From NCBI GenBank assembly GCA_963971425.1, contig OZ020514.1, forward strand, positions 44,607,527 through 44,671,526: a DNA stretch of 64,000 bases, read 5' to 3'. How positions within the stretch are numbered: the first letter of the stretch is position 1; each line of letters opens with the position of its first letter. The stretch is from Bryoerythrophyllum caledonicum (lineage: Eukaryota > Streptophyta > Bryopsida > Pottiales > Pottiaceae). The translations under genes and the position numbers were made by a program. Below are positions 12,241 through 57,326 of this stretch, piece by piece. Below the pieces are notes generated by a model. It searched no databases and had not been told where the DNA came from. It was given only the letters and a program-made list of their open reading frames with translations.

Positions 12241-14309
12241 AGTCTAATCTTATAGCTTTATACATATGTACACTATAGACGGGTAGAAGTCCACTAAGGT
12301 TACTCACTTTTGGGCAAAAAAAATATACTGTAGAGTATAATTGTTTTAGAGCCCTTTGTTAACTTGTTGTTGAATGCCAACCGTCCATTGATTAGGTGTA
12401 AAGAAATCATGGCCAATAAAATGTTAGGTGAACAGAAAATATCTTGAAGAAAGTGTTGATTTTTTGGACTTTGTGTTGTCATAACACATGTCATTTTATA
12501 GGTGATCCAACCCTTTCCCGAGATGAGTACATTGCATACTGCAGAGACTGAAAATATACCAAATATGCTACGCAGTATATATGTTGAATCAAGGCACCAA
12601 AAACTAGGTTTTGAAGAAAATGATGGAAGAAAAAAGTTTTTTTGAAATTTTTTTATGTACCAAGATAGATTTTTGTATACTAATGAAGGTTGGATAAGAA
12701 TTTGGAGCAAAAATCAACATTAATTTCTTATTTAGGCTTCTTGAAAAAATAGCTTATTTTTTATCAATAAAAGCCAAATTAAGTTTTGGATCTAGAATTT
12801 TCAATCATAATGTAGGAGCACATTATATTATGAATGCCTTCCAAAAAAATTCGAAGTATTTTACCTCCTGAAACTCTAAAAAAAAGTATATTTGTCTGAT
12901 TTGAGATACCTGTGACATGTATGTAGTAATGAAAGATATACTTCTATTGGCCAAACCATGGGCCGGAACTCTAATTTTTTAGGATTCTCATAGTGCTATT
13001 GAAGTAAGAAACTACATTTCACTAGAAGAATTCCAAAATCAATCCTACATTGGCACTAGGTAGCAAACGAAGGCTCGTGACTTGTCCCGACACCATTTGT
13101 GACAGGTTTTTCATACTAGCTTAGTCGACCGAGACCCAGACGTCCGGCGTTCGTTAGCACCCGGATAGGATATATCACCACTACCAATGGTCCGTGGACT
13201 TACAGAGATTTCAGTGTCGACACAAGTAACGGAAGGTGATGATAACCAAATTGGAAAACATTCCAAGTTGGATTTACTTCGCCGTAAAGACTCTGACCAA
13301 CACCAACGAGAGGGAGAAGCGCCGAAACATCATCAACGAGGCTGGAGGGTGTCCGGTAGTGCATCCAGGGATCATTAGACTTGCGTACATCCACCCGAAA
13401 ACTATGGAAGGGTACACGCTTTGGTGGAATGGGGGATCTCTCCAGAGTATTTGGTCCAACTTTGACTCGAAAGTGGACGAAGCATTGCCATTTGAACAGA
13501 TTGAGATGCATCCGAATACCGGGTTGTCGATCCAAGAGCTTCGGTGGGTAAAAACTTACCGCAAACATCGAGTGAATCTCGCGCTATCGTTGCTTATCAT
13601 TGTGGGGAAATGCCACGACGCCAATTATATACACAATGACATCTCTCCATCGAATGTTTTGCTCCATTTTAATGAGTGGAAACCCGATACGGTGTACATC
13701 CGAATTTGCAATTGGGGGCTTTCTAGTTGGGTTGTGGCGAATGAGCCATCAATGTATGATTATCAATTCAAGGAGCAGGTTCAAGAAGAGAGAGAGCGGC
13801 GACGGTTTATTGCACCAGAACTATTCTATGTTTTTGGGCCGCGGGACTCCACCAACTCGCTTGAAGTCATGCAACGGTCACACCTCTACTCCAAGGCAGC
13901 AGATGCATTTGCGGTGGGTTGGATTTGTGAAAAATTTGGAAAGAAGATTAAGACACTTCGTATTTCACGACCAAAAACACAGAGCAATATGTAAACCTGA
14001 AGCTAAAACTTAGAGCGTTGCAATAACAACTGATCGAAGAACGGTCTTCTGTGCCAGATGTTTTAGACACATTAATGAAACCCCCCCACAACTAGACTAT
14101 CCCTCTATGTTGTTACCGACAATAGTTTTTTGTTAATTAGCTGCATTAGTTTTCCATGTCGTGGTTAAATAGGCAATACGGCATCTTCGTAGAAGAATAT
14201 GTGTACTTGGCAATTGCCATATGTTACATTTTAATCAATATTGGATACGTCCAAATCTTAAATTTTCAATCCGAGATTTGCATTTGTTCAAGCACAAATA
14301 ATTATTGAT

Positions 14310-42472: not shown

Positions 42473-42901
42473 CTAGGGTTGGTACCCGTCGTCCTGATAG
42501 GGAGAGCAGAGGGTGGTGTGTTAAATTTATGTTTGTATGTTTTGTATTTTAAAACCTATAAGCTCAAATTGAATCTAAATGGAAAAATACTTATATTTTT
42601 GGAGTGCATGTAAACGTTATCCTAGTTTAAACCCATTCCAAAAATAAAGTACTTTTGCTTTACATTTGCATTTTGATCAACCCTTTGTGCACATAAGTAT
42701 CACTTGCCTAATATAGGAGGAGAAAATCCTTCACATCAAGAGGTCAAAATCAAGAGTCATTGGGTTACTACCTAATATCAAGAATCAAGAAGAGTGCATC
42801 ACCGTGCCTCACTCTACACATCAAGAGGTCAAAATTAAGAAAGAGAGGTTATGTGACCAGGAGCGGCGGACTGACAGATTGACACCTTTTATATAGGTAG
42901 A
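42473..42901 (-). mobile_element. Complete non-autonomous Helitron, family H2
   Basis: Minus strand: 5' TCTACCTATATAAAAGGTGT at 42901, preceded by A; 3' ...GACGGGTACCAACCCTAG at 42473, followed by T. It is 429 bp with no ORF. A second, truncated copy starts at 57738. Confidence 0.7.
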
Positions 42902-43325
42902 TGAGTCTCCTGTTAGGGTTTTTGTATTACTTGTGTGCACAACTTGTGTCGGTCTTTCTTGTTTTTTTGCCTTTGTTGGTTGAGTTTTGTCAATGTTGTA
43001 CTTGCATATCTAGATCTGGTTTTGATGGTTGAGATCGGAATGGACAGCTGAGATTTCTTTTCAGCATGGTTGTGCTTGCGTTTTGGTTAGATATGTAAGT
43101 GATTGCATTTGTGCTCAAAGCTTAATGCCATTTGCCTGCTTTGCATGCTTGAAATGTTCGCGGGGTTTATGGTCTGGCGCTCAAGTCGTCATTATCAATC
43201 TCCTAAGCTATATTCCCAGCATTGTTTCTTCAGTTTTACTTGTGTGGACTTGAAGAATATAGGTGGGAGCGCGCAATGTATGTTCTTGTGTTTTGAATTT
43301 AAATTCAAACTCATGGCTTCTATGG

Positions 43326-43335
43326 CTATAAATAG
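43326..43335 (+). promoter_or_regulatory. TATA box of the Crypton-like gene
   Basis: CTATAAATAG stands about 180 bases before the ATG at 43513, with a T/C-rich stretch where a transcription start would lie. Confidence 0.5.
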
Positions 43336-43512
43336 GGCGTTTCAATCTCTAGCTTAAAGTTTCTTATATATCTTTCTAGTTGCTGCATTTCAATGTACTT
43401 AGTGCAAGAGTGATTCTCTTGAGTTTGTAGTATTTTTCAATGCTTTTTGATATCACGATGGTATATTTGCTTGGCATTTGAGAGAAATTTTGTTTTTTTG
43501 CGGTTTTTAGTG

Positions 43513-44788
43513 ATGGAGTCACCTAGTTTTAGCTTAGGGTTCAGCCCCATTGCAAAAAAGCGACGATCTAAGAAGTGTTTGACTTTTCAGAATTCTCATG
43601 ATTCAGCGTTGATGTTGGGGATATTGAGTGGTGCTCCAGATCCTTCTAATGTTGTCGATGTGTTCGCCGAACCTCTTTCTTCTATTTTCCCGTCGACTCC
43701 ATCATTCCTCCTTGACACGGGAATTGACGATGAAGATGTTGAGAGCGTAGCGTCTGTCGCAAATGATAAGTGATTCCAAAATCGTTTAAATGAATTTCTT
43801 GGACACATTAATCATACTCCTTTACATCCCTCAGTGTTTATATACACTTGGCAGGAGCTTGGTACTGATCTGCTGCCTCGTTTCTTTGAGTGTTTGTTGA
43901 AGAAGGATGGGTAGAGGTATCCTTCTGGTTCAATCAACAACCTGCTCAACGCCTGCCAGCGTATTTTGCGTAAGCACCAACGATGTGAAGTTCCTTCAAG
44001 ATTAGCTACAGATTTACCTATCTTACCTCAATCAAATATTCGGATCAATCCATTGTTTTCTCGAATAGTGGATTGCTTTGAGTATGCAATGCGGAATTTA
44101 GTGAAAGAGCAAGGTAATCTGCCGAGGCAAAAGGTAGATATATTCTCGGAATTTGAAGAACGTTTCATTCTTGATCATCCGGAGCATTCAATCCACCATC
44201 ACTTTGGATTGCAAAAGCGTTGGGCATATTTTTGCTGTAGTGAGTTCATTGTCCGCGGTCAAGGTCAACTGCACAAGTTGGAGGTCGGACAATTTTCTGA
44301 AGCGGTTGTTTATAATGTTCCAACAATTTGGTAAGCTTTCTTGTGTTTTTTTATTCTAATTTTTTTCAATTGAGTTACATGTTCATATCTTAAATTTTTA
44401 TGTCAGATCTTAATTCAGAATAGTGTATTTACTTTGAGCTTGTTGCTTTTGATTTTTTGCAGTTACGTGGAAATAAATTCCAAAAACAACCACGTGGATT
44501 TATGGCATATGCAACAGGGGGATTTTCGAGAGCCGTGTTACTCCAATAATCCTGATGTAGTTCCTTGTTATCAGGCCTTGATGGCTCACATGCCGCCTGT
44601 TGGGAAAAATAGTCACATATTCCTGCACCCAATTTCTAATCCTATTAGTATGACTTAGTATAAGCAAAATGTGAATGTTTGCAAGGCCGTTTGTCCACTT
44701 ATGTAGCCTCTATGGCTGTGGAAGTTGGTTTGCGTGGTGACTATACCAACAAGTTTTGTAGATCCACGGCTATTTCTCGTATGATTGC
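43513..44788 (+). pseudogene. Crypton-like tyrosine recombinase gene, 5' part
   Basis: ATG at 43513 opens MESPSFSLGFSPIAKKRRSK with a basic nuclear-signal-like patch. The recombinase core then reads RYPSGSINNLLNACQRIL (compare YPPxTLxxLLxGLQRxLR of Crypton/DUF3504 proteins) and FSEFEERFILDHPEHS. A splice donor at 44331 and acceptor at 44463 join in phase (PTI-CYVEINSKNNHVDLW). Further text reads LSTYVASMAVEVGLRGDY and TNKFCRSTAISRMIA, matching the Crypton TNHSLRATAxxRM box. Lesions: TGA at about 43771, TAG at about 43912 and 44656, and a +1/-1 shift near 44680. The gene continues at 54304 beyond a 9.5-kb transposon. Confidence 0.65.
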
Positions 44789-45066
44789 TACACAAATAAT
44801 GTTCATTAGTGTTTGCAACACTATTTACAAATCTAAACGCTAAATGTCAATTATTTTACTAATGTAACAACATTAGTTGTCAATTTTAACACTAATTGTC
44901 AATTTTTGTAATTTTTACCCTTGTTTCATTTTAACATGTTTATATTTAGTGTTAGTTATGTAACAAATCATTGCAAGTCACCAAATCTTGCCACATGTCA
45001 AAGGCAAACATTCCATCTTTTTGGAGTGTTCCATCCAACAAATTCTTCATTTGTTCATGCTCAAAT

Positions 45067-45500
45067 TCATTCTTCATGCTCAAAAAGAAAATTATGAGGA
45101 AATGGAGGAGAATCAACAATATTATTCAAGTTGAAAGCTTGCACCATACTTGCAACTTTCAGCAACTGGGGCAACTTCAGCACTGTCTTGGTGGACAACA
45201 TTCGACACGTATCACAGCGTCCTTGCAAACAAAACTTCTGGGTTGTACAAGAGTTATCACGTTCTTTACAACCCCTAGAAATCAATAGATATTTGAAGCC
45301 AAAAGATATTTTGAAGAAAGAATACAAAGTTAAATATATACAAGTCACTTACAATTGCAAAGGAAGTTTAAAAGGTCTTAGATAGGTACAACTTTGCCTC
45401 AAAACTATGGTTCATGTTTTGATATAATCTCCTGAAGATTGGGGAACAATTGACCGACACTCCATGTGCCATCAATTGCCAAAGACAATCCACATCGAAT
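45067..45500 (-). pseudogene. C-terminal exons of the P1 transposase gene
   Basis: CGLSLAIDGTWSVGQLFPNL (about 45.4-45.5 kb) is the counterpart of CDLALDVDGIWSTNQLFPQL in element P2 at 61.7 kb. A Cys-rich segment (CTTQKFCLQGRCDTCRM, about 45.2 kb) follows and may bind zinc. Confidence 0.5.
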
Positions 45501-46901
45501 CATTTATTTTCTAGCATAAGAAATATTATTACAATCTATCTCTTTATTTACATCCTCGACGCTATCAGCAGCCAATTGTAGGAAGTATAGTTACCAGGAT
45601 TTGTCAACTTTCCTGACCATTGTCCATCGGCTCGGGTTGAATTTTGCCATGATTCTGTTTGAGTCAATTCGATATTTTTAGCCTCCCATCGCCTTGTCCA
45701 CGCGTCCTTTATTTTCGAGATGATGAAAGTGTCCGCAAGTTGACACAAATGCCTCGAACATGGCGGCAGATACTTGAGTGTTGTTTGTTTCGCTGCCAAT
45801 ACAAATGACAATCTAGGTGTCATGTTTTGGCTGCTGCAGTTGTCCACCCACACAAACTTAGTACGACCGAGGGTTGTCATAACGGATGGGTTGAGGTGAT
45901 CAGACGAGACAACCGGACGGGCGGTCCAGACGACACGGACGGACGGTTTGGACGGATTGCCTGAAATGCGTCCAGTAATTATTTGCAAGTAAGAAGTTTT
46001 TACTATGATCGCCACGTCACATACAAACGTGTCACGCCATCGTGGCACTAGGGAGGGGACGTCACCTCCCCTAAATGGTAGGGGCGGAGACGTCACCGCC
46101 CCTCCCCGCCCAATTTTGGAATCAGGATCTTTGAACGGCAATATCTCAATCAAAAATAGTCCAAGTTAAGCATGTGATATGTTTTTTGGCATCTAAGCAA
46201 AATTCGGATGTCAAATCTCACCTCAAACGCTTGATTTGGGCTATTTTTGAGTAAATTATGCCCATCCAAACATTCTGACTCCTAATTTACGCGGGGAAGG
46301 GGCGGGGACGTTAGGGGCGGGGACGTCTCCACCCCAAAATGGTAGGGGAGGAGACGTCACCGCCCCTTCCCGCCCAATTTTGGAATCAGATTCTTTGAAC
46401 GGCCATATCTCAGTCAAAAATAGTCCAAATTAAGCGTGTGATATGTTTTTTGGCATCTACAAAAAATTTAAACGTCAAATCATACCTCAAATGCTTAATT
46501 TGAGCTATTTTGGAGTGAGTTATGCCCATTCAAACATTCTAACTCCAAAATTAGGCGGGGAAGGGGCGGGGACGTTAAAGGCCGGGACGTCTCCGCCCCA
46601 AAATGGTAGGAGCGGAGACATCTCCGCCCCTAAATGGCACGGGCAGAGACGTCCCCGCCCCTAAATGGCAGGGGCGGAGACGTCACCGCCCCTCCCCGCC
46701 CAATTTTGGAATCATGATCTTTGAGAGGCCATATCTCACTCAAAAATAGTCCAAATTAAGCGTGTGATATGTTTTTTGGCATCTACAAAACATTTAGATG
46801 TCAAATCACACCTCAAACGCTTGATTTGGGCTATTTTTGAGTCAGTTATGCCCATTCAAACATTCTAACTCCAAATTTAGGCGGGGAAGGGGCGGGGACG
46901 T
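45472..46901. repeat. 1,430-bp exact direct duplicate (first copy)
   Basis: Identical by eye to 49273-50702 (offset 3,801), including the transposase segment and most of the hAT element. Its partner starts on the first base after the 200-N gap. Likely an assembly artefact or two alleles placed in series. Confidence 0.85.
45548..45860 (-). pseudogene. DDE transposase segment (second and third catalytic Asp), first copy
   Basis: FVWVDNC (second Asp) and HLCQLADTFIISKIKDAW (third Asp) are separated by 36 residues, typical of the pogo/Tc1-mariner side of the DDE class. It is cut at TLGR by the hAT element. Identical in sequence to 49349-49661. Confidence 0.7.
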
Positions 46902-47500
46902 GAGGGCGAGGACTCAGCCCTTTGAAGGTTGTAGAGGAACAAAGTTGGGCAAACTCCATTCTCGCCTTGGCAAAGGCCTTCCTCATTCCCATGCGTTAGA
47001 GAAACGATATTTTTAATGTAAATTTAGTTTTCCTTCCAACTTCTAGGGAATGACATGATTGCCGTGATGATTGAGGAATACAAAGATCTTGTCGGAACCA
47101 AATATAGCGGCTTTTTGCTCTAAATGATTCTATTGGACTTGAATTAGGAGAAGAAGAAGAACTACGGTCTTCCAATGGGACCGGCGTGAATGTAGTGTTC
47201 GTTCATTCTCTTCACTAAGCATATGGCCATGGAACATAGGCTAGTGTGTATAGAACTACTTCCTCCTCTCGAGGGTAAACACTTTTCCACACTAAGTGCT
47301 TCCCTACACTAATTGCATTAAAGATAACCGACATGTCATCTCCCCCAAGGGCTTTGTGGGTTCCCATACAACGGAGCCGTGGGACCCTCTATCATAATTG
47401 GGTGGACTATGGTGGTACTTGAATTAGAATGTTGTATTACTCTATAAACAACAAATTCTTTTTGACATTTTCAAAGAAGGTAATATTCTTTGCACAAGTG
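46902..47500 (+). other. Sequence following the duplication break, with one exon-like stretch
   Basis: After an acceptor-like TTCTAG near 47042 the text reads NDMIAVMIEEYKDLVGTKYS then a stop. The upstream text (FEGCRGTKLGKLHSRLGK) may be an earlier exon. The product is unknown; it may be host sequence or part of an inserted element. Confidence 0.3.
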
Positions 47501-47628
47501 AAACCTCCTTTATTATCGACGGACAAATACCATTGAGCAATGTGGTTTTAATGTAAAGATGTGTTCTTAAATGACTCATCTTGAGGTCATATTCAAAATT
47601 TTGAAGCATAATGTCGAATCATCCAATG
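47499..47628. repeat. Left arm of a long inverted repeat
   Basis: About 128 bases are the reverse complement of 48945-49072 with few mismatches. The right arm runs straight into the 200-N gap, so the palindrome may be longer. Confidence 0.8.
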
Positions 47629-48929
47629 TGTAACAACCCCTTTGGAACAATCCACGAATAACTCTTCATAACCGTAGGGTCGATGAAATATCTATCTTTA
47701 AATTGTTGAGGTTATGATTATTTATCGCTTTATTCAGTCATAAAGAAAGATGATGCAAATAAAAGCATTCTCTAAAGGCCACAATGTTCCAAAGTCGAAG
47801 TGGTTCTCTCACAGCACTTCTTACTAAATGATGTCAATTTAACTTTAAATTGATTAAACCTTGCAAAGGTTAGATGAAACTCCAAAAGGCTTTGCAACTA
47901 AGGGTGACACCTTCAAAAGGTCACATTAAACATGTCTATTGTAAAAGCTATGGATGTAGGGGAGAGACACACGACCAAATGTTTTTTAGTATACATATAG
48001 ATGTACAAAAAATATAAATGTCAATAGAAGCTCGAGTAAAATTTCTAGCAATATAGGACATAACTATTAACTTCTTTCTTGAACTCATGTCTATATACAA
48101 TAACGATAGAACTTTGTATGGTTTGCATGAAATTCTTTTCCTAAATAAATATAATTTTGACATTGTGATGTACTATACATATGCCGTATTTATAGATTGG
48201 GAATGTCAATTTCTTTATGTTCAAATGGAAACTATTACATTTCCTCTAATACGTGCAAACTATTTATATGTTCCTTAACTTTTTTGTTTATCTTTCCATG
48301 CCCCTTCTTAACATTGGATTCAATTGTAGAATACTTATATATAAAGTGTATTACCTTCTTCTAAGATTCCAAAAACAAAGTATTTTCTTTATTGTTAAAA
48401 TACATTTTAACCCAAGTAGAGCACGTTTACACTTTTTGGGGAAGTTGGGAAAAAAAGTAATCTTGAAGGGGCCACTGGCATAAATTGTAGAAACGACGTA
48501 CGATAAAGAAATAGGGGCAAATATATTCACTTTGGATAAATTTTATAAAGAAAGTACATGAAACATACATTGCTTTAAAAGTGTGAAATATGGTTATAAG
48601 TAATTTATAAATAGATATAATGTCAAAGAACTATAAAATTGATACATAAAAAATATCATGGAAAAAATAGGTACAAAATTTGAATGGTAGATTATACTGA
48701 TTTAGGTTCTCACTATTTCTCAATGGATGAAAAGGGGGTATTTATTGTGGGGCACTCATGCAACGTTTTATTGTTGGGTAACTTGTACATTTCCTCCGTG
48801 GTTAGAAGTTTACACGAGCCCTTATGTTTGGGGATATATATATTTCTCTCTCATTGCATGTTTAAATAATTTGTTTGTAAAGTTAAGTTGCATAATTCCT
48901 TTGTAAAGTAAAGTTTAAGGGTTGTTACA
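47629..48929. mobile_element. 1.3-kb insertion with TGTAACAACCC inverted ends
   Basis: The segment starts TGTAACAACCCC and ends GGGTTGTTACA, perfect 11-base inverted ends, and lies between the two inverted arms. It is AT-rich with no good ORF. The flanks are inverted rather than duplicated, so a normal target duplication cannot be shown. Confidence 0.45.
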
Positions 48930-49072
48930 CAAGGGATATATGGACATTGGATGATTCGACATTATGCTTCATAAATTTGAATATGACCTCAAGATGAGTC
49001 ATTTAAGAACACATCTTTACATTAAAACCACATTGCTCAATGGTATTTGTCCGTCGATAATAAAGGAGGTTT

Positions 49073-49272
49073 NNNNNNNNNNNNNNNNNNNNNNNNNNNN
49101 NNNNNNNNNNNNNNNNNNNNNNNNNNNNNNNNNNNNNNNNNNNNNNNNNNNNNNNNNNNNNNNNNNNNNNNNNNNNNNNNNNNNNNNNNNNNNNNNNNNN
49201 NNNNNNNNNNNNNNNNNNNNNNNNNNNNNNNNNNNNNNNNNNNNNNNNNNNNNNNNNNNNNNNNNNNNNNNN
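49073..49272. other. Assembly gap of exactly 200 N
   Basis: The round length suggests a placeholder of unknown true size. It lies between an inverted-repeat arm and the start of a duplicated segment. Confidence 0.98.
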
Positions 49273-49348
49273 TCAATTGCCAAAGACAATCCACATCGAA
49301 TCATTTATTTTCTAGCATAAGAAATATTATTACAATCTATCTCTTTAT

Positions 49349-49661
49349 TTACATCCTCGACGCTATCAGCAGCCAATTGTAGGAAGTATAGTTACCAGGA
49401 TTTGTCAACTTTCCTGACCATTGTCCATCGGCTCGGGTTGAATTTTGCCATGATTCTGTTTGAGTCAATTCGATATTTTTAGCCTCCCATCGCCTTGTCC
49501 ACGCGTCCTTTATTTTCGAGATGATGAAAGTGTCCGCAAGTTGACACAAATGCCTCGAACATGGCGGCAGATACTTGAGTGTTGTTTGTTTCGCTGCCAA
49601 TACAAATGACAATCTAGGTGTCATGTTTTGGCTGCTGCAGTTGTCCACCCACACAAACTTA
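49349..49661 (-). pseudogene. DDE transposase segment (second and third catalytic Asp), second copy
   Basis: Same sequence as 45548-45860. In this copy the upstream half of the gene follows on the far side of the hAT element at 51025, so this is the version in proper context. Confidence 0.7.
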
Positions 49662-49669
49662 GTACGACC

Positions 49670-51016
49670 GAGGGTTGTCATAACGGATGGGTTGAGGTGA
49701 TCAGACGAGACAACCGGACGGGCGGTCCAGACGACACGGACGGACGGTTTGGACGGATTGCCTGAAATGCGTCCAGTAATTATTTGCAAGTAAGAAGTTT
49801 TTACTATGATCGCCACGTCACATACAAACGTGTCACGCCATCGTGGCACTAGGGAGGGGACGTCACCTCCCCTAAATGGTAGGGGCGGAGACGTCACCGC
49901 CCCTCCCCGCCCAATTTTGGAATCAGGATCTTTGAACGGCAATATCTCAATCAAAAATAGTCCAAGTTAAGCATGTGATATGTTTTTTGGCATCTAAGCA
50001 AAATTCGGATGTCAAATCTCACCTCAAACGCTTGATTTGGGCTATTTTTGAGTAAATTATGCCCATCCAAACATTCTGACTCCTAATTTACGCGGGGAAG
50101 GGGCGGGGACGTTAGGGGCGGGGACGTCTCCACCCCAAAATGGTAGGGGAGGAGACGTCACCGCCCCTTCCCGCCCAATTTTGGAATCAGATTCTTTGAA
50201 CGGCCATATCTCAGTCAAAAATAGTCCAAATTAAGCGTGTGATATGTTTTTTGGCATCTACAAAAAATTTAAACGTCAAATCATACCTCAAATGCTTAAT
50301 TTGAGCTATTTTGGAGTGAGTTATGCCCATTCAAACATTCTAACTCCAAAATTAGGCGGGGAAGGGGCGGGGACGTTAAAGGCCGGGACGTCTCCGCCCC
50401 AAAATGGTAGGAGCGGAGACATCTCCGCCCCTAAATGGCACGGGCAGAGACGTCCCCGCCCCTAAATGGCAGGGGCGGAGACGTCACCGCCCCTCCCCGC
50501 CCAATTTTGGAATCATGATCTTTGAGAGGCCATATCTCACTCAAAAATAGTCCAAATTAAGCGTGTGATATGTTTTTTGGCATCTACAAAACATTTAGAT
50601 GTCAAATCACACCTCAAACGCTTGATTTGGGCTATTTTTGAGTCAGTTATGCCCATTCAAACATTCTAACTCCAAATTTAGGCGGGGAAGGGGCGGGGAC
50701 GTCTCCGCCCCTGCCATTTAGGGGCGGGGACATCTCCGCCCCTACCATTTAGGGGCGGTGATGTCTTTGCGCCTACCATTTAGGGGCGGACACGTCCTTG
50801 CGGCCAATATATTATTTTATGTAGTCAACTATTCATTTTTTTAGTTTTAATCATGCGTGGCAGCACTTTAGTTCATACGTGGCTGCCACGTCGCATGTTT
50901 TTTACCTTGCAGGTAAGTCAACCCTATGTTGACTGTATCGGATGGGCGAGAGCTTTATCGGACGGGCGAATCGGACGGACGGGCGAATTGGACATCCGTC
51001 CAGTATGACAACCTTG
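49670..51016. mobile_element. Complete non-autonomous hAT element, 1,347 bp
   Basis: The ends GAGGGTTGTCATA and CAAGGTTGTCATA (reverse complement of the right end) are near-perfect inverted repeats of the CARGGTTGTCA type. They are flanked by 8-bp duplicates GTACGACC (49662-49669) and GTACAACC (51017-51024). The interior is three roughly 230-300-bp tandem units, each with GC-rich palindromes centred on GACGTC. No transposase. It interrupts the P1 transposase gene just before its second catalytic Asp. Confidence 0.85.
49858..50800. repeat. Internal tandem units with GGGGCGGRGACGTC palindromes
   Basis: Three units share GCCCAATTTTGGAATCA, CTCAAAAATAGTCCAA and CATTCAAACATTCTAACTCC. Between them GGGGCGGAGACGTCACCGCC-type palindromes are repeated. 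At least six contain exact GACGTC. Confidence 0.8.
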
Positions 51017-51024
51017 GTACAACC

Positions 51025-52250
51025 ATGAATATCCGCTTGAAATAAGAGAGGTTCTTAAAAAATACTCAAGGATCAAATTTTGATCCATCCACCCCTTCGA
51101 TCCCGTCTTATACGATACATCTGGGATGTTATGAAGAAGAGCTCGCATTAGATAACTGCGGTTGGCGTTTGTGAATATCAACATTGGAGCCTCAATCATT
51201 GCTTGACGGCCTCCAGAACTACGGACCACCATCGTCATTGATTCTCCACCAGAAACCATGTCCGCTTACTTCACCGTATCATCCCCCCGAAAGCCCAATG
51301 TACGGCCATTGTCCATATTCACCACAAAGTGAGTTTCGTTGAGGTTCTCCATGAGATTCTCATCAAAAATCCCACTTTGAAAACCTCTTTGCAACACTTC
51401 CAAGTGAAATGTTGTATGCATTTCGATCTGCACTTCTTTGTCTGGACTACATGATAGCCTCCCACGTTGCATCAACAATACAATGTTATGGACGTTCATA
51501 AATTGTTGTATCCAACAATGTGTTAGTTTGTCAACGATCAGCCTATTGTCTTTAGGATCTCTTGACTCTACCGTATAAAGAGATGTCTGATAAAAAAATA
51601 TTGAAAGTGCTAACTCAATGAGTAGTTTTGATGAAAATTTAACACCTATTTTTTTGTATTGTTTCAAATGCAGTTAGAAGTCTGGGATAAATCCATAATA
51701 CCCAGTCCAACCATTTGTTGCCACGTCCGGGCGCTGCCTTGCTACGTAGCCGCTTCCGGCTTCCACAGCGACTCCTCGTGGTTGTCACAATCATAGGTGT
51801 CTCCCCCTCCCCTCCTTCGTTACAAAATTCACCTCGCATCTCCCACCAACGAGAAGCTCGTACAACATTTGCTGATGTGAGACCTAGAAAAATGCTCTGG
51901 AAATGCATGAATTGTGCGTTGATAAAGGCCTGAAAGGCCATGCACCGATTCATCTTGAACCATCCAAGTTATGACAGTCTTTTGAGTTGCAAGAGTAGAA
52001 ACCTGTTGGAGACGACGAGGAGTTTGGGACTCGAAATTGTCCATGATAGGCTTGTATGAAACAACAAGTATAATTTTTATTCTTTATATAAACCAACTTG
52101 GATTCTCTCAAAGCACCACAGAAACACATGACTTCTTCGTTGAATGTGTAACCTACAACCGTAACCGCGCACAACTTTGGAAGGACCGACTGAAAGGCAA
52201 CATCGATGGTAGAAATAGTAACCACAAGAAATAATGACGACCGCACTCAT
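51025..52250 (-). pseudogene. DDE transposase gene of P1, N-terminal half
   Basis: From high to low coordinates: a helical N-terminus (ANVVRASRWWEMRGEFCNEG), then QGRLSCSPDKEVQIEM-type text, NETHFVVNMDNGRTLGF with the first catalytic Asp (about 51.3 kb), AMIEAPMLIFTNANRSY, and GSKGWMDQNLILEYF up to the hAT insertion. The same order is seen in P2 at 62.0-62.7 kb. The frame changes near 51640 and 51260, and splicing may explain some of these. The residue order D, D, D is intact in this copy. Confidence 0.6.
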
Positions 52251-52651
52251 CTTCAGAAAGAAATCGCAAAGGGTCAGACAACGCACCTAATGCGGACAAC
52301 TATGGCATGGAGTTCCTTGAGAAAGGAGCTCGTTCCCGATGCACGTACTCTATCTTGGAGGGTAACACACCAAAAGAATCAGGAGAAAGAACCTGAGCAA
52401 CTACACGGTTAAAGCACTTGCGCTTAGCGAAACAGAGGACACGCAATAGGAGCGAGATGGCGAAGGAAAGAAGCCTCCATCCTCAACCTCCATTCTATTG
52501 ATCTTTGGTTTTTCTCCTCCGTGTGTTGTGGTTCTGTAAAGCGCAGTAGAGCAAGATTTTTAAATTAGAGAAGTCATCTGTAGCGTTCCATCTCACCACT
52601 ACTACGCCGCTTACTAAGACACCAAAAGAAGCAAGATCCGGAACCAATCCC

Positions 52652-52830
52652 CTAGAACTCCAAAAATAGAGCTCCAAAATCAAGAATCCACACCTTCATT
52701 GCATACTTTGAATCGGTGAAGTGTTGGCCTTTGCAGATGCAAATGGACGCATTCACTCCATCTTCTTGACAATTAGTAGAACACGAGCATTGAGTACCGT
52801 AAGTGTTGTCGATGGAATGGCTAAAGAGTG
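52652..52830 (-). pseudogene. Cys-rich exon-like stretch in P1
   Basis: NTYGTQCSCSTNCQEDGVNA followed by CICKGQHF and a donor GTGTGG near 52700. Possibly a 5' exon of the transposase gene; not recognised. Confidence 0.3.
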
Positions 52831-53079
52831 AGTTTGCGATGTGTTTTCTAGTTACCAACAATGGGGTAACATAGAGATTCTTAACTTACAGTGGTGTAAA
52901 AGTTATAGACCGAAGGTAATGAACGAAGCCAAGCGCCTCCTGTCGTGCGCCACAAGCTTTCAAAAGTACTCCTCCGACACCGTTAAATTGCTCCCGCTCC
53001 CACCTCGCCACCAAGTAGCCGATTCACCAAGCTCGCTCTTTCGATAGCAACCTGCAGGTACCGGAAGCGGAGAATGGTG

Positions 53080-54180
53080 AGATCCAACATGCAAACGTAG
53101 TAAGATCCACTGCATTGCTGCAGCTGCATGCGACGAAGCAAGATCCACTGCACTGCTGCTGCACCATATTTACTATGGTAGACGGTTGTGTCAACATGCA
53201 ATTAAAGTAAGATCCACTGCATGATAACTCTCTGGATTCCTTCAACAAAACCGCACTAATCTCCAAACTTGCTTCAAAGAACGCGCTTAATTCCTACTTA
53301 CGAATTTTCTCGGCAAACAAACTAAAGCTGTCCTTGCATGAAGCAAGATCCACTGCACTCCTGCTGCTCCACCATATTCATTATGGTAGGCTTCTGTGTC
53401 AACATGCAAATGACGTAAGACCCACTGCATGCAACGAAGCAAGATCCAGTGCACTGCTTCAATGCCGCAAAGAAAACTTCGATCAAAAAGCACAAACCAA
53501 GAGAATACTCTCACAAAACTTAAACAAAACGAGTCTCTAAAAACAAAGTCTTACACGAACACCTTGTCAACCAAATAGAAAAACCACGCACACGGGTGTC
53601 GGAGCTCCGTCGCCCGCACCAAATAGAAAAACCAAGCATCCTACGAAGGCCTACCTTGTTAAACATCTCAACAAAGTGCCTGATGAAATTTCTCATTCCA
53701 CCTAAATGGTAACTTCAACTCCGGAGAGTTCAAACAGAAAAATATAATCGAAATGTACATATCACCGTCTCAGGGCACAATATGAGAAAATGGTGCAATC
53801 AAACTAAAGGCACAACAGGCGTGAATAGCAGAATATAACCAAAAGCAAACTGTAGTCCAGTGCCATTCTCACGGCTCTTGTAACCAAAAGCTAACTTTGT
53901 CTTACGTGCTAAATGGCAACATTCACAGCTCAGAGTTAACAAGAAGTAATGACAACCTGGAAAGAGTGCCCAAGTGGCACCAGCAGCGATGAAATTGACA
54001 ATCTCGTAGTGTATAAAATCACTCTCTATATGCCAAACAAGCTGCACCATATTCATTATGGTAGGCGGCTGTGTCAATATGCAATCAAAGTAAGACCCAC
54101 TGCATGCGACGAAGCAAGATCCACTAGACTGTTGCTGCTACATCATATTCATTATGGTAGGCGGATGTGTCAGTGAGATG
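53080..54180. repeat. Subterminal repeat modules of P1
   Basis: Blocks AAGCAAGATCCACTGCACTG, CACCATATTCATTATGGTAG and GTGTCAACATGCAA recur in the same order at 53.10-53.22, 53.33-53.46 and 54.04-54.18 kb. CCATATTCATTATGG is a small palindrome. Confidence 0.75.
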
Positions 54181-54303
54181 AGCGTGACATCGTGACACTT
54201 GGCACTAAACACCAAATGTAAACAAATTGACATTTAGCGAAAGTCGGGTCATAGGGGTCGTTACACTATTGGTGCCATAACAATAATGAACATCATTAGT
54301 GTA

Positions 54304-55703
54304 GCAGAGTTCCTGAGGAAGTAATAGTTACTGTAACCGGCCACAAAAATCCAAAGAGCCTGAAGCGTTGCGACCGTGTAGCGATTGTGAGGCACATTTC
54401 GGCGCAACAAGCTTCTCATCAGCATGTAGGTGTACCCTATCAAGATATTCTTGCTGAGAATATGGATTTTTGGAGAAGGAAAAATGGATTTCGGCAAGGT
54501 GGTAGTATCATTCTAAACCTATCTTAGTTGTTTAATAATTGCTTAAGTCAGAGTCAAAGTACTTCCCTTTGAGAAGAAAGTTGTGGCAGAGATTTTTCTA
54601 ATTCTGTTGCTGCCTCGTTGTTCAAATCCAATCTTGCTCGGCAATTAGATAAATGTCCGTTTGATAGTGGTGATCATCTTGTCATATGTCCTGGAGATCC
54701 AGTTAATGAGCAGTGGGATCAATTAGATTCCCATTTTCCTTTGAGGTCACGCTTGTCTTCCAAGAATCCTCTGAATTCTCCTAATAGGTCTCCTATCCAA
54801 TGCTCTGACCTTGTTGCTTCTACTAGTAAGAATCGTCTTTCTAGATCTGAGAGAAACCTCATTATAGCACAGAAGAAACGAGTTGTGAGTTCTCATTCTT
54901 TTGAGAATACAACTATTCTTCACGGTATGCAAAAAAATTATAAAGATTTTGCTTGTGTTCAACCTTTAAAGTCTAGTCGTTCTTTTTCTGTATCTAGTGG
55001 AGATTATAGAAAGAGAAAAGAGAGTGAAACTGCTTTGATGTATGAGCAGATAAAAAAAGAGTCAGCTTGTGTGAAGGCTGGTTGGGATTGTGAGAGTATT
55101 TTGGCTTGTTTTTCTGACGATTTAAATGGTGTGGACAACGTTGCAGCTACTTTTACATATATCATGATTGCTCAACCGAATGCGCCTTGGATACCTCAAC
55201 TGAACGCTCCTCGGATTCCGGAGCTAAATGCTCCTTAGATTCCTCAGCTGAATGCTCCTCGAATTCCTTACCTGAATGCTTTTCAAAATCCTCAGCCTTT
55301 TGTGTCTCATACTGCATCAAATGTTCAATCACGTCCTCTTCTGTCATCATGTGTTTCTCCTAGTGTTACTGCGGTCTTAAGTGCACCTGTACTCAGTGAT
55401 AATATGCTTCCGCAGAAGTGTGTTCCTGCCATTGGCAGTGAAGGTTTGTTGCGTAGTAGCAGTGTTCGTGCTCTGAATGAACAACCTCAAGCTAGTCATT
55501 TAGATCAAAACTATCATTTCTCTGGTCCAATCCAGTACTTTTTCAACATTGGAAGGATCAACTGTGATCCAACTGTTTCTATTGGTGACTTTCTTACAAG
55601 TCTTTCACGTGTAGCATCTTCGCAAGGAGCGACAAGTATTGCTGAACCTGTTTTGCAAGGCGGGATTGGAGGATCTGGCAATATCCATAGAGGACAAGGT
55701 TGA
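54304..55703 (+). pseudogene. Crypton-like tyrosine recombinase gene, 3' part
   Basis: Directly after the TA target site the frame resumes as SRVPEEVIVTVTGHKNPKSL, the GH box of tyrosine recombinases, then KRCDR where Cryptons have the catalytic Tyr (YxR). That Tyr is Cys here. A second exon from about 54590 (acceptor GTGGCAG) reads NSVAASLFKSNLARQLDKCP and continues through a basic region and a PQLNAPRIPELNAP repeat, with one TAG at about 55216, to a stop near 55703. The disordered C-terminus is unlike short fungal Cryptons. Confidence 0.6.
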
Positions 55704-57326
55704 GCAATTTGGTATATGATGGGTGCAGTTACTTGTTCATATTTTTTGAATCAGTTTACATATTTTTTGGAGCGGTGTATTGATAATAGAGTTGAAAAAT
55801 GATTAGAGTAGTGACAAAGTGTAGGTTGCAGCAAGCTTTCCTGGATTGAGTCAACCGGGTTTTAAGGCGTTGAGCCTCACTTCTGTACAAAACTTCAATT
55901 TTGAATTCAAAGTTTGCATTCAATATATAAATCCAATTGTGTTCTGTAATAATTTGAATTGAAAATTTACAGAACTTAGTTTTGTCTTATGTGGTAAAAT
56001 TCAGCAAAGTGAAAAATTGGAGGAGAGCCCTCTATCATGCCATAATGTCATCTCTCTCATCCAATGGTTCGATGACACGTCAATTAATCTGGTCTTGGCC
56101 AGCACTACGAATCTGTAATCGAGAGTCAAATTCGTGAGATGGCACTTCTCAGAGCGCAGACAATGCGGTTCTCTTCACCTCCGTTGTTATATGTGCTTCT
56201 TTCTTCAACTCCGTTGCTCTCCGTGAGACCGGTGCAGAAAATTTTTTTTCTAGGAGAAAAAAAATCCCCCGTAGCCATTCCAATTGAGAATGGAAAAGAG
56301 TGGCCAAAAGCAAGTTTTAGCGCAAGTGCAATAGCCTGCAAAACGCCTGCGATGGGAAATTACAGTCCTATCGCTAAAGGCATTGACAATTTAGTTGTTT
56401 CATCCTCTGTAATATCATCCAAAACAACAGTATTGGATGAAATCTGTCCGTTTTGAAACTAGTGGATGTACTGGACAAACACATGACAAATTGTTCTGTT
56501 TTATACATTGAGACAAGTGGAACCCTGTTGTAACCGACGATTCAAAGGAGAATTGAAGAATTGGAGATTTGTTGGAGAATTAATTTATTTTTTGAAAAGC
56601 CTGTCACTTACTTTTTGCCTCATTTTTCTCAGACTCATTCTTCTTCAGCAAATCATTCGAAGCAATAATATTTCACCAGAAACATCATCTTTGTAGGATG
56701 TAAATTTCCTTTTGAATAAAAAACTTTGTTGCATATTTAGGAAATTATTATAAATTTCTTCAAGAACAACTAAGAACAAAATGTTGACATGGACGGGAAT
56801 GCCTGAATTAACATATGGAGGGGCACATCACACAACAAAGTAGTGGCAATGAAGCTACTACTCTTTCCCTTTGAGCACCTTCTTTCCTTCTTCTAATAAA
56901 ATCTTGGTGTATAATCATAATACCAATTTTTGAAATAGCAAGAATGAGATTGTATACCCGCCATTTACTACAAATATCCATCAATTACTTTAAATACCCA
57001 TTATTTACTCTATATTTGGGGTAGTACACCCCATAGTATCATCAAAGTAATTAAATTTTTTTGTCCAAAAATGTTCATCTGGGTGTCACCTAATTTCATT
57101 TAAATAAAATGGCTATCCAAATTCAAATGAAAGGGTAAAATTTAAAGACTCTTCTACAGGGCACATGTAGTTTATAAGGCACAATGTTCAAAAGACAAAG
57201 TGATTCCTCCAAAAGGGTTTGTTCTAAAGAATGTCACTTTGGAACAATGAGATGAAAACTCTCCAACACAAAACCGGTGGATGTTCCGGATAGACACATG
57301 ACAAATTGTTTTCTTTTATATATATA
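55704..57326. other. Downstream region without a supported gene
   Basis: AT-rich. A 105-codon frame at 56139-56456 lacks support. A block GACACATGACAAATTGTT occurs at about 56484 and 57293 as a direct repeat. Confidence 0.4.

Follow-up and report, generated by a model that had tools for sequence, protein, structure and literature searches.

Cryptons, which encode a tyrosine recombinase with the catalytic tetrad R-H-R-Y, are listed from fungi, animals, oomycetes and a diatom in Table 1 of Kojima and Jurka (2011; PMC3212892), where 6-bp terminal direct repeats are given for most fungal Cryptons and no terminal repeats for animal ones. According to a review of Arabidopsis transposons, none has been described from that plant (PMC7385966). 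Here, we analyze an element at ~42898–56108 of a 64,000-nucleotide window (C1:44607527-44671526) of a 437-Mb genome assembled in 894 contigs. It is dead, and is probably a copy of an autonomous DNA transposon that has a Crypton-type tyrosine recombinase as its only recognizable enzyme and that belongs to a large, probably moss, lineage of plants. The novelty lies less in the dead gene than in two traits of the lineage, a Lys (KxxR) in place of the His of the catalytic HxxR motif and a long left-end hairpin.

Results

The element in the window is one copy of a multicopy unit of ~4.17 kb. Homology to copies on C10, C6, C8, and C1 bounds it on the + strand at ~42898 (42898–42903) and at 56108, so that the original prediction of a recombinase gene, close in its coordinates, had captured only part of a longer repeat. 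Family A comprises six loci, the window copy included. Its three complete copies, c10a (4171 bp), c6 (4138 bp), and c10b (4167 bp), lie in unrelated flanks on other chromosomes than the window; c10a is 97.9% identical to c6, 94.8% to c10b, and 91–92% to the window copy over two long blocks. The window copy retains its right end, lacks the first ~330 bp including the hairpin, and is interrupted by a ~9.5-kb pogo-like insertion. A 139-residue protein piece matches 33 places in the same genome, with 83–88% identity at five (E 1e-79 to 2e-67), and a C-terminal piece matches 21; because both recur in this way, the recombinase boxes are not a chance reading. Beyond the window copy there are at least 64 related recombinase loci, five of which belong to family A.

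The gene is read from the + strand. A subterminal motif, CTCAAGTCGTCATTATCAATCTCC (43180–43203), resembles the hairpin arm of the complete copies and is followed by a candidate TATA box read from the sequence, TATAAATA (43327–43334). Exon 1 (43513–44330) encodes the N-terminus, the core-binding part, and the box-A Arg (IVRGQG) and is broken by in-frame stops at 43771 and 43912; in c10a, c6, and c10b the corresponding frame stays open over 283–290 residues. A predicted GT-AG intron of phase 2 (44331–44462) separates it from exon 2, the first part of which (44463–44790) carries the SKN lysine and the KxxR motif (TNKFCR) and contains a stop and a frame change. The second part (54304–55700) carries TGHK, KRC (in which Cys replaces the catalytic Tyr), and a long C-terminal region with several stops, including 24-bp tandem repeats that code for PNAPxIPQ-like units (55166–55296). 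Direct reading places RYPSGSINNLLNACQRIL at 43915, TNKFCRSTAISRM from ~44745, and TGHKNPKSLKRCDR from ~54336, which bears out the original prediction of boxes in Crypton order, and the intron, TATA box, and repetitive C-terminus likewise lie where it had put them. The intron is probably old, since the distant TNKTPR clade has one at the same protein position and in the same phase; subfamily C9a has no intron there, and its frame is continuous.

In-frame stops, one frame change, and one insertion disrupt the window copy, and at sites where the other aligned copies agree it has 62 C-to-T or G-to-A changes versus 14 in the reverse direction. Given this excess, the stops, and the insertion, the window copy is dead. 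In c6, exons 1 and 2 are both open, with a phase-2 GT-AG intron between them, but Cys replaces the box-A Arg, and c10a has a stop in exon 2. Frames of at least 100 residues outside the recombinase gene were checked on both strands of the three complete copies. The five such frames in c10a gave no Pfam match with an E-value of 0.1 or below, and c10a therefore contains no recognizable reverse transcriptase or DDE enzyme.

Subfamilies C9a (28.9 bits) and C12a (29.3 bits) pass the 27.1-bit cut-off of PF00589 (Phage_integrase), and were above it in a repeat search too. By this curated cut-off, the lineage is one of tyrosine recombinases. The best match to DUF3504 (PF12012; gathering cut-off 29.7 bits) reaches 23.7 bits (E 5.5e-5) over positions 19–160 of 162, and c6 and the window pieces gave no match at E up to 1, so that the profile check proposed with the original prediction returned sub-threshold matches only. 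The DUF3504 model matched nothing in the whole genome, where the controls likewise matched nowhere. A relation to Cryptons and DUF3504 is thus supported, though by no curated cut-off. Up to 10 of 14 members matched PHROG integrase families at E up to 1, searches of the PDB with single sequences and profiles gave nothing significant (an IntI4 profile match had E 0.6), and a single-protein search of viral contigs found no match.

Four C-terminal catalytic positions were read in 64 loci, comprising 36 matches of one search and 28 new loci among the 61 matches of a second. The second query carried His at the HxxR position, and Lys at that position is thus not derived from the query. Lys occupies it in 61 of the 64 loci, the remainder having His, Glu, or Thr. 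The second Arg is kept in 59 of 63 covered loci, the later His in 61 of 63, and the Tyr in 56 of 59 (otherwise Cys, Phe, or a stop); the box-A Arg (RG) is present in the alignment rows covering it, with Cys in copy c6. The catalytic positions of the lineage are Arg, Lys, Lys-x-x-Arg, His, and Tyr. Type IB topoisomerases also have Lys (KxxR) at the place of HxxR. In the pentad of well-studied recombinases, a His stands where this lineage has Lys (PMC4381057). Within family A, the change of Tyr to Cys is private to the window copy, and the five other copies have Tyr. Of the two catalytic residues thought at first to have been replaced in the window, the Tyr has indeed been lost, while the Lys is the norm of the lineage. 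Copies keeping Tyr, which had been proposed as a check, are abundant; a His in HxxR was found at a single locus.

A long hairpin stands at the left end in three end types. The hairpin of family A, a 32-bp inverted repeat enclosing a loop of 4 nt, lies 3 nt in from the edge (z-score −15.1 for c10a); it is perfect in c10a and c6 and has one mismatch in c10b. Beside it, at base 72, lies GTAGTGCTGGCCTG, the inverted copy of which closes the right end; the resulting 14-bp terminal inverted repeat has no mismatch in c10a and c10b and one in c6, and its right-hand member in the window copy is GGCCAGCACTAC (56097–56108, + strand). GTAGTGCT is also present in the loop-proximal arms of the hairpin, and internally the arm motif recurs in a tandem array of three ~85-bp units in c10a, c6, and c10b (1 of 1000 shuffled arms scored equally). 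C9a/C9b and C11/C12a have, as judged by eye, a common edge, TGTACTAGGTAAT, followed by a long hairpin, and in the C9a and C11/C12a ends no inverted partner was found between left and right. C14/C6b have a different, nested left hairpin of ~140 nt and, at base 150, a 20-bp stretch whose inverted copy, with one mismatch in C14 and three in C6b, stops 4 nt short of the right edge. Counted from the edge, the left inverted repeat thus begins 71 bp in for family A and 149 bp in for C14 and C6b. Of nine elements, eight fold best in their left 170 nt, which ranks second of 20 windows in the ninth (z-scores −3.3 to −14.6), and the right edges used fold unremarkably (−1.6 to 1.0). A non-autonomous derivative of 1.36 kb (C6:16540526-16541885) retains only ~9 nt of the hairpin. 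Two truncated family-A copies, at about C8:7487780 (c8) and at C6:16541885, break at or inside the TCGTCATTATCWATC motif, as though it had served in recombination, and a further family-A right end is present at C9:2871090-2871193 (L067).

The C14-type hairpin has 33 matches at 19 places in the genome, five of which have a recombinase match in the same orientation within 7 kb downstream. For a covariation analysis, 10 of 15 C14-type hairpin loci were aligned, 13 further places having been fetched. On the C14 structure, 91.5% of 542 cells pair, a percentage biased upward by the omission of L091, L096, L098, L099, and L100, which folded worse, lacked an arm, or were short. Both sides have changed in 21 of 59 pairs, compared with 6.0 ± 1.9 in shuffles (0 of 500 reach 21) and at most nine when the structure is slid; RNAalifold recovers much the same stem. 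On this alignment, the covariation shows that the palindrome has been maintained, but not for what reason.

Flanks were compared in six copies, of three end types, with both edges. The longest flank matches within 3 nt of these edges are 1, 3, 1, 3, 5, and 2 nt, and neither a constant target-site duplication nor a constant short direct repeat was found in the flanks of these six; no consensus target is visible in so few.

The insertion that splits exon 2 (44791–54301, no strand assigned) has inverted ends, CACAAATAATGTTCATTAGTG and CACTAATGATGTTCATTATTG, and a TA duplication; c10a is uninterrupted at the same point. Two decayed minus-strand pieces of it match DDE_1, at 20.8 bits (E 0.0003) and 14.1 bits (E 0.035), both below the cut-off of 22, and on account of these pieces and the TA duplication it fits a pogo-like transposon. 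A gap of 200 N (49073–49272) is flanked by exact copies of 1,430 bp (45472–46901 and 49273–50702), and 47501–47629 matches 48944–49072 in inverted orientation (129 bp, 98%). The duplication around the gap and the inverted match are probably an assembly artefact, and because of the gap and the duplication the true length of the insertion is uncertain. Elsewhere, a miniature inverted-repeat transposable element (MITE) of ~215 bp, with a TA duplication and CACTAAAGATGACATTTAGTG inverted ends, splits the hairpin of copy c1 (L047/L059, about C1:3833020-3833235); its ends are similar to those bounding the 9.5-kb insertion described above.

The host was assessed from a LEAFY gene present in the same genome (E 1.3e-27). 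Streptophytes are reported to have LEAFY homologues, which many chlorophyte genomes lack, and three sites, including 312, set LEAFY types, of which type II is mainly moss (PMC6588583). The DNA-binding domain here reads KPKMRDYVHCY. Asp at site 312 marks type II. From the presence and form of the gene, a streptophyte host is well supported and a moss is probable, in agreement with the original prediction of an intron-bearing, Crypton-like tyrosine recombinase in a streptophyte. The LEAFY search gave seven matches, all above the Pfam cut-off and one of them LEAFY itself; a SAM_LFY-like domain is also found in gene pieces L070 (C12:14410522) and L071 (C7:26862901), where it lies near what looks by eye like a BED-type zinc finger. 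Within the window, a protein-kinase-like frame lies at 13230–13991 on the + strand (PF00069, E 6.9e-9, above the cut-off).

Discussion

If the element is a transposon mobilized by its own recombinase, the enzyme would bind half-sites resembling GTAGTGCT, located within the hairpin, immediately interior to it, and at the right end, and would cut the DNA with its Tyr. The element would then be excised, probably as a circle, and reintegrate with the target not duplicated. Less certainly, the palindrome may be a site of recombination or assembly, acting in double-stranded form, through its inverted half-sites, or as a folded strand. The window copy has lost the Tyr, the frame, and the left end, and another transposon is now found splitting it.

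The original prediction had left a choice between a dead and a domesticated gene, and it is the former that holds. A Crypton-derived host gene, kept for DNA binding in the manner of ZMYM2 or QRICH1, would accord with the sub-threshold DUF3504 signal, the lost Tyr of the window copy, the intron, and the long C-terminus. A domesticated gene, taken as a single conserved locus under selection and devoid of mobility features, is not supported, as the element is a multicopy, sharply bounded, and decaying repeat, with six family-A copies and the wider lineage of at least 64 loci, of which 56 of 59 covered retain the Tyr. The stops and the 62 versus 14 substitution bias of the window copy also argue against it. 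Ratios of nonsynonymous to synonymous substitution (dN/dS) are 0.28–0.88 in 16 of 17 within-family comparisons, a further point against it. Domestication is highly improbable. A remnant of a DIRS/Ngaro-type retrotransposon that has lost its reverse transcriptase seems just as improbable. DIRS/Ngaro-type elements occur in green algae. Such elements likewise use tyrosine recombinases, as described in PMC3212892, but three copies of 4.1–4.2 kb here share their end points, and c10a has a recombinase gene only (no search of the genome for reverse transcriptases was made). Between the first and last 400 bp, moreover, a single direct 10-mer is shared in c10a and in c6, and none in c10b.

The inverted repeats, of 14 bp in family A and of 20 bp with one or three mismatches in C14 and C6b, could be those of an ordinary DDE transposon carrying the recombinase gene as cargo, like MarCry-1_FO (PMC3212892). 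This is very unlikely, since c10a has no second recognizable gene, the target duplication is not consistent, and the left repeat begins well inside the edge (71 or 149 bp). A different doubt concerns the hairpin alone. The element could be Crypton-like while its left hairpin is a by-product, such as an inverted duplication or a nested palindromic MITE, and not a working site. Gene conversion may homogenize the arms, the 1.36-kb derivative does with only ~9 nt of hairpin, and the C3 subfamily has none; on the other side, three dissimilar end types have a hairpin at the edge, and in two of these the half-site motif is found at three places, namely inside the hairpin, next to it, and at the right end. 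The by-product explanation is accordingly possible, if on balance somewhat unlikely.

A number of observations weigh against the reading preferred here. Family A scores 18.9–25.0 bits against PF00589 and 13.4 bits (E 0.081) against DUF3504, under the cut-offs of 27.1 and 29.7. No family-A copy is intact in all respects, the excess of C-to-T-type changes is present in other copies too and is not a mark of the window copy alone, and Cys replaces Tyr also at a diverged locus outside family A (C14:2982484). The Lys is not universal: His stands in HxxR at C7:2702278 (a locus with stops), and Glu and Thr occur at one locus each. Although dN/dS between subfamilies C9a and C12a is 0.23 and 0.31, dS is near saturation there; within families, one value of 2.85 derives from 11 differences, and that for c6/c1 is inflated by a misaligned tail. 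As to the ends, the left homology edge of the C3 subfamily lacks a hairpin, no left end was found for the TNKTPR clade, the nine elements of the folding test are copies of only three end types, and the likeness of the C11 end to the C9 end was seen by eye, a search with the C11 end having found only C11 and C12a. The omission of five loci from the covariation alignment favored pairing, and gene conversion between palindrome arms could account for part of the covariation. The 5-nt flank match of C6b is mildly unusual (~0.1 such matches expected by a simple count), and no empty site turned up among the sequences gathered in the analysis, with which alone the flanks were compared.

A plant lineage of at least 64 loci would widen the host range of Crypton-like elements. 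A literature search, limited in reach and so a weak test, found no report of land-plant Cryptons. With a lineage-wide Lys for the catalytic His and with hairpin ends, end recognition and integration become directly testable. It is tempting to speculate further that plants, or at least this probable moss, harbor a deep and expanded lineage of tyrosine-recombinase transposons with a topoisomerase-IB-like KxxR, in which the left palindrome is a folded, attC-like site and integration is asymmetric, joining a hairpin end and a single half-site end; taken as a whole, this proposal is unlikely.

Among known systems, the Cryptons (CryptonF, S, A, and I), as presented in PMC3212892, are the closest. 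They resemble the present lineage in having a tyrosine recombinase as the only recognizable enzyme, low copy number per family, and non-autonomous derivatives, and a weak DUF3504 relation links the two. A target duplication is not consistent here either, and the absence of a DDE-type duplication is what the mechanism would lead one to expect. The present lineage differs in its plant host, in the Lys in place of the His of R-H-R-Y (the other residues being mostly kept), and perhaps in an intron common to its clades. A further difference, which counts against a simple Crypton assignment, lies in the left hairpin and the 14-bp or 20-bp inverted repeats. As two features described for Cryptons, the His and the type of end, are not shared, the lineage, though it works like a Crypton, is better called a variant, distinguished by its KxxR active site and its unusual ends, than an ordinary member. 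The animal DUF3504 genes ZMYM2, QRICH1, and KCTD1 are related through the same sub-threshold profile match (19–160 of 162, E 5.5e-5), but are described as having lost the Tyr and the second Arg (PMC3212892), both of which this multicopy lineage mostly keeps. Integron integrases, which are likewise tyrosine recombinases, act on palindromic attC sites that vary in sequence but fold in a conserved way; they are bacterial, however, and the IntI4 profile match was not significant (E 0.6). Type IB topoisomerases share KxxR for HxxR, but are not recombinases, and the PDB searches returned no match to them.

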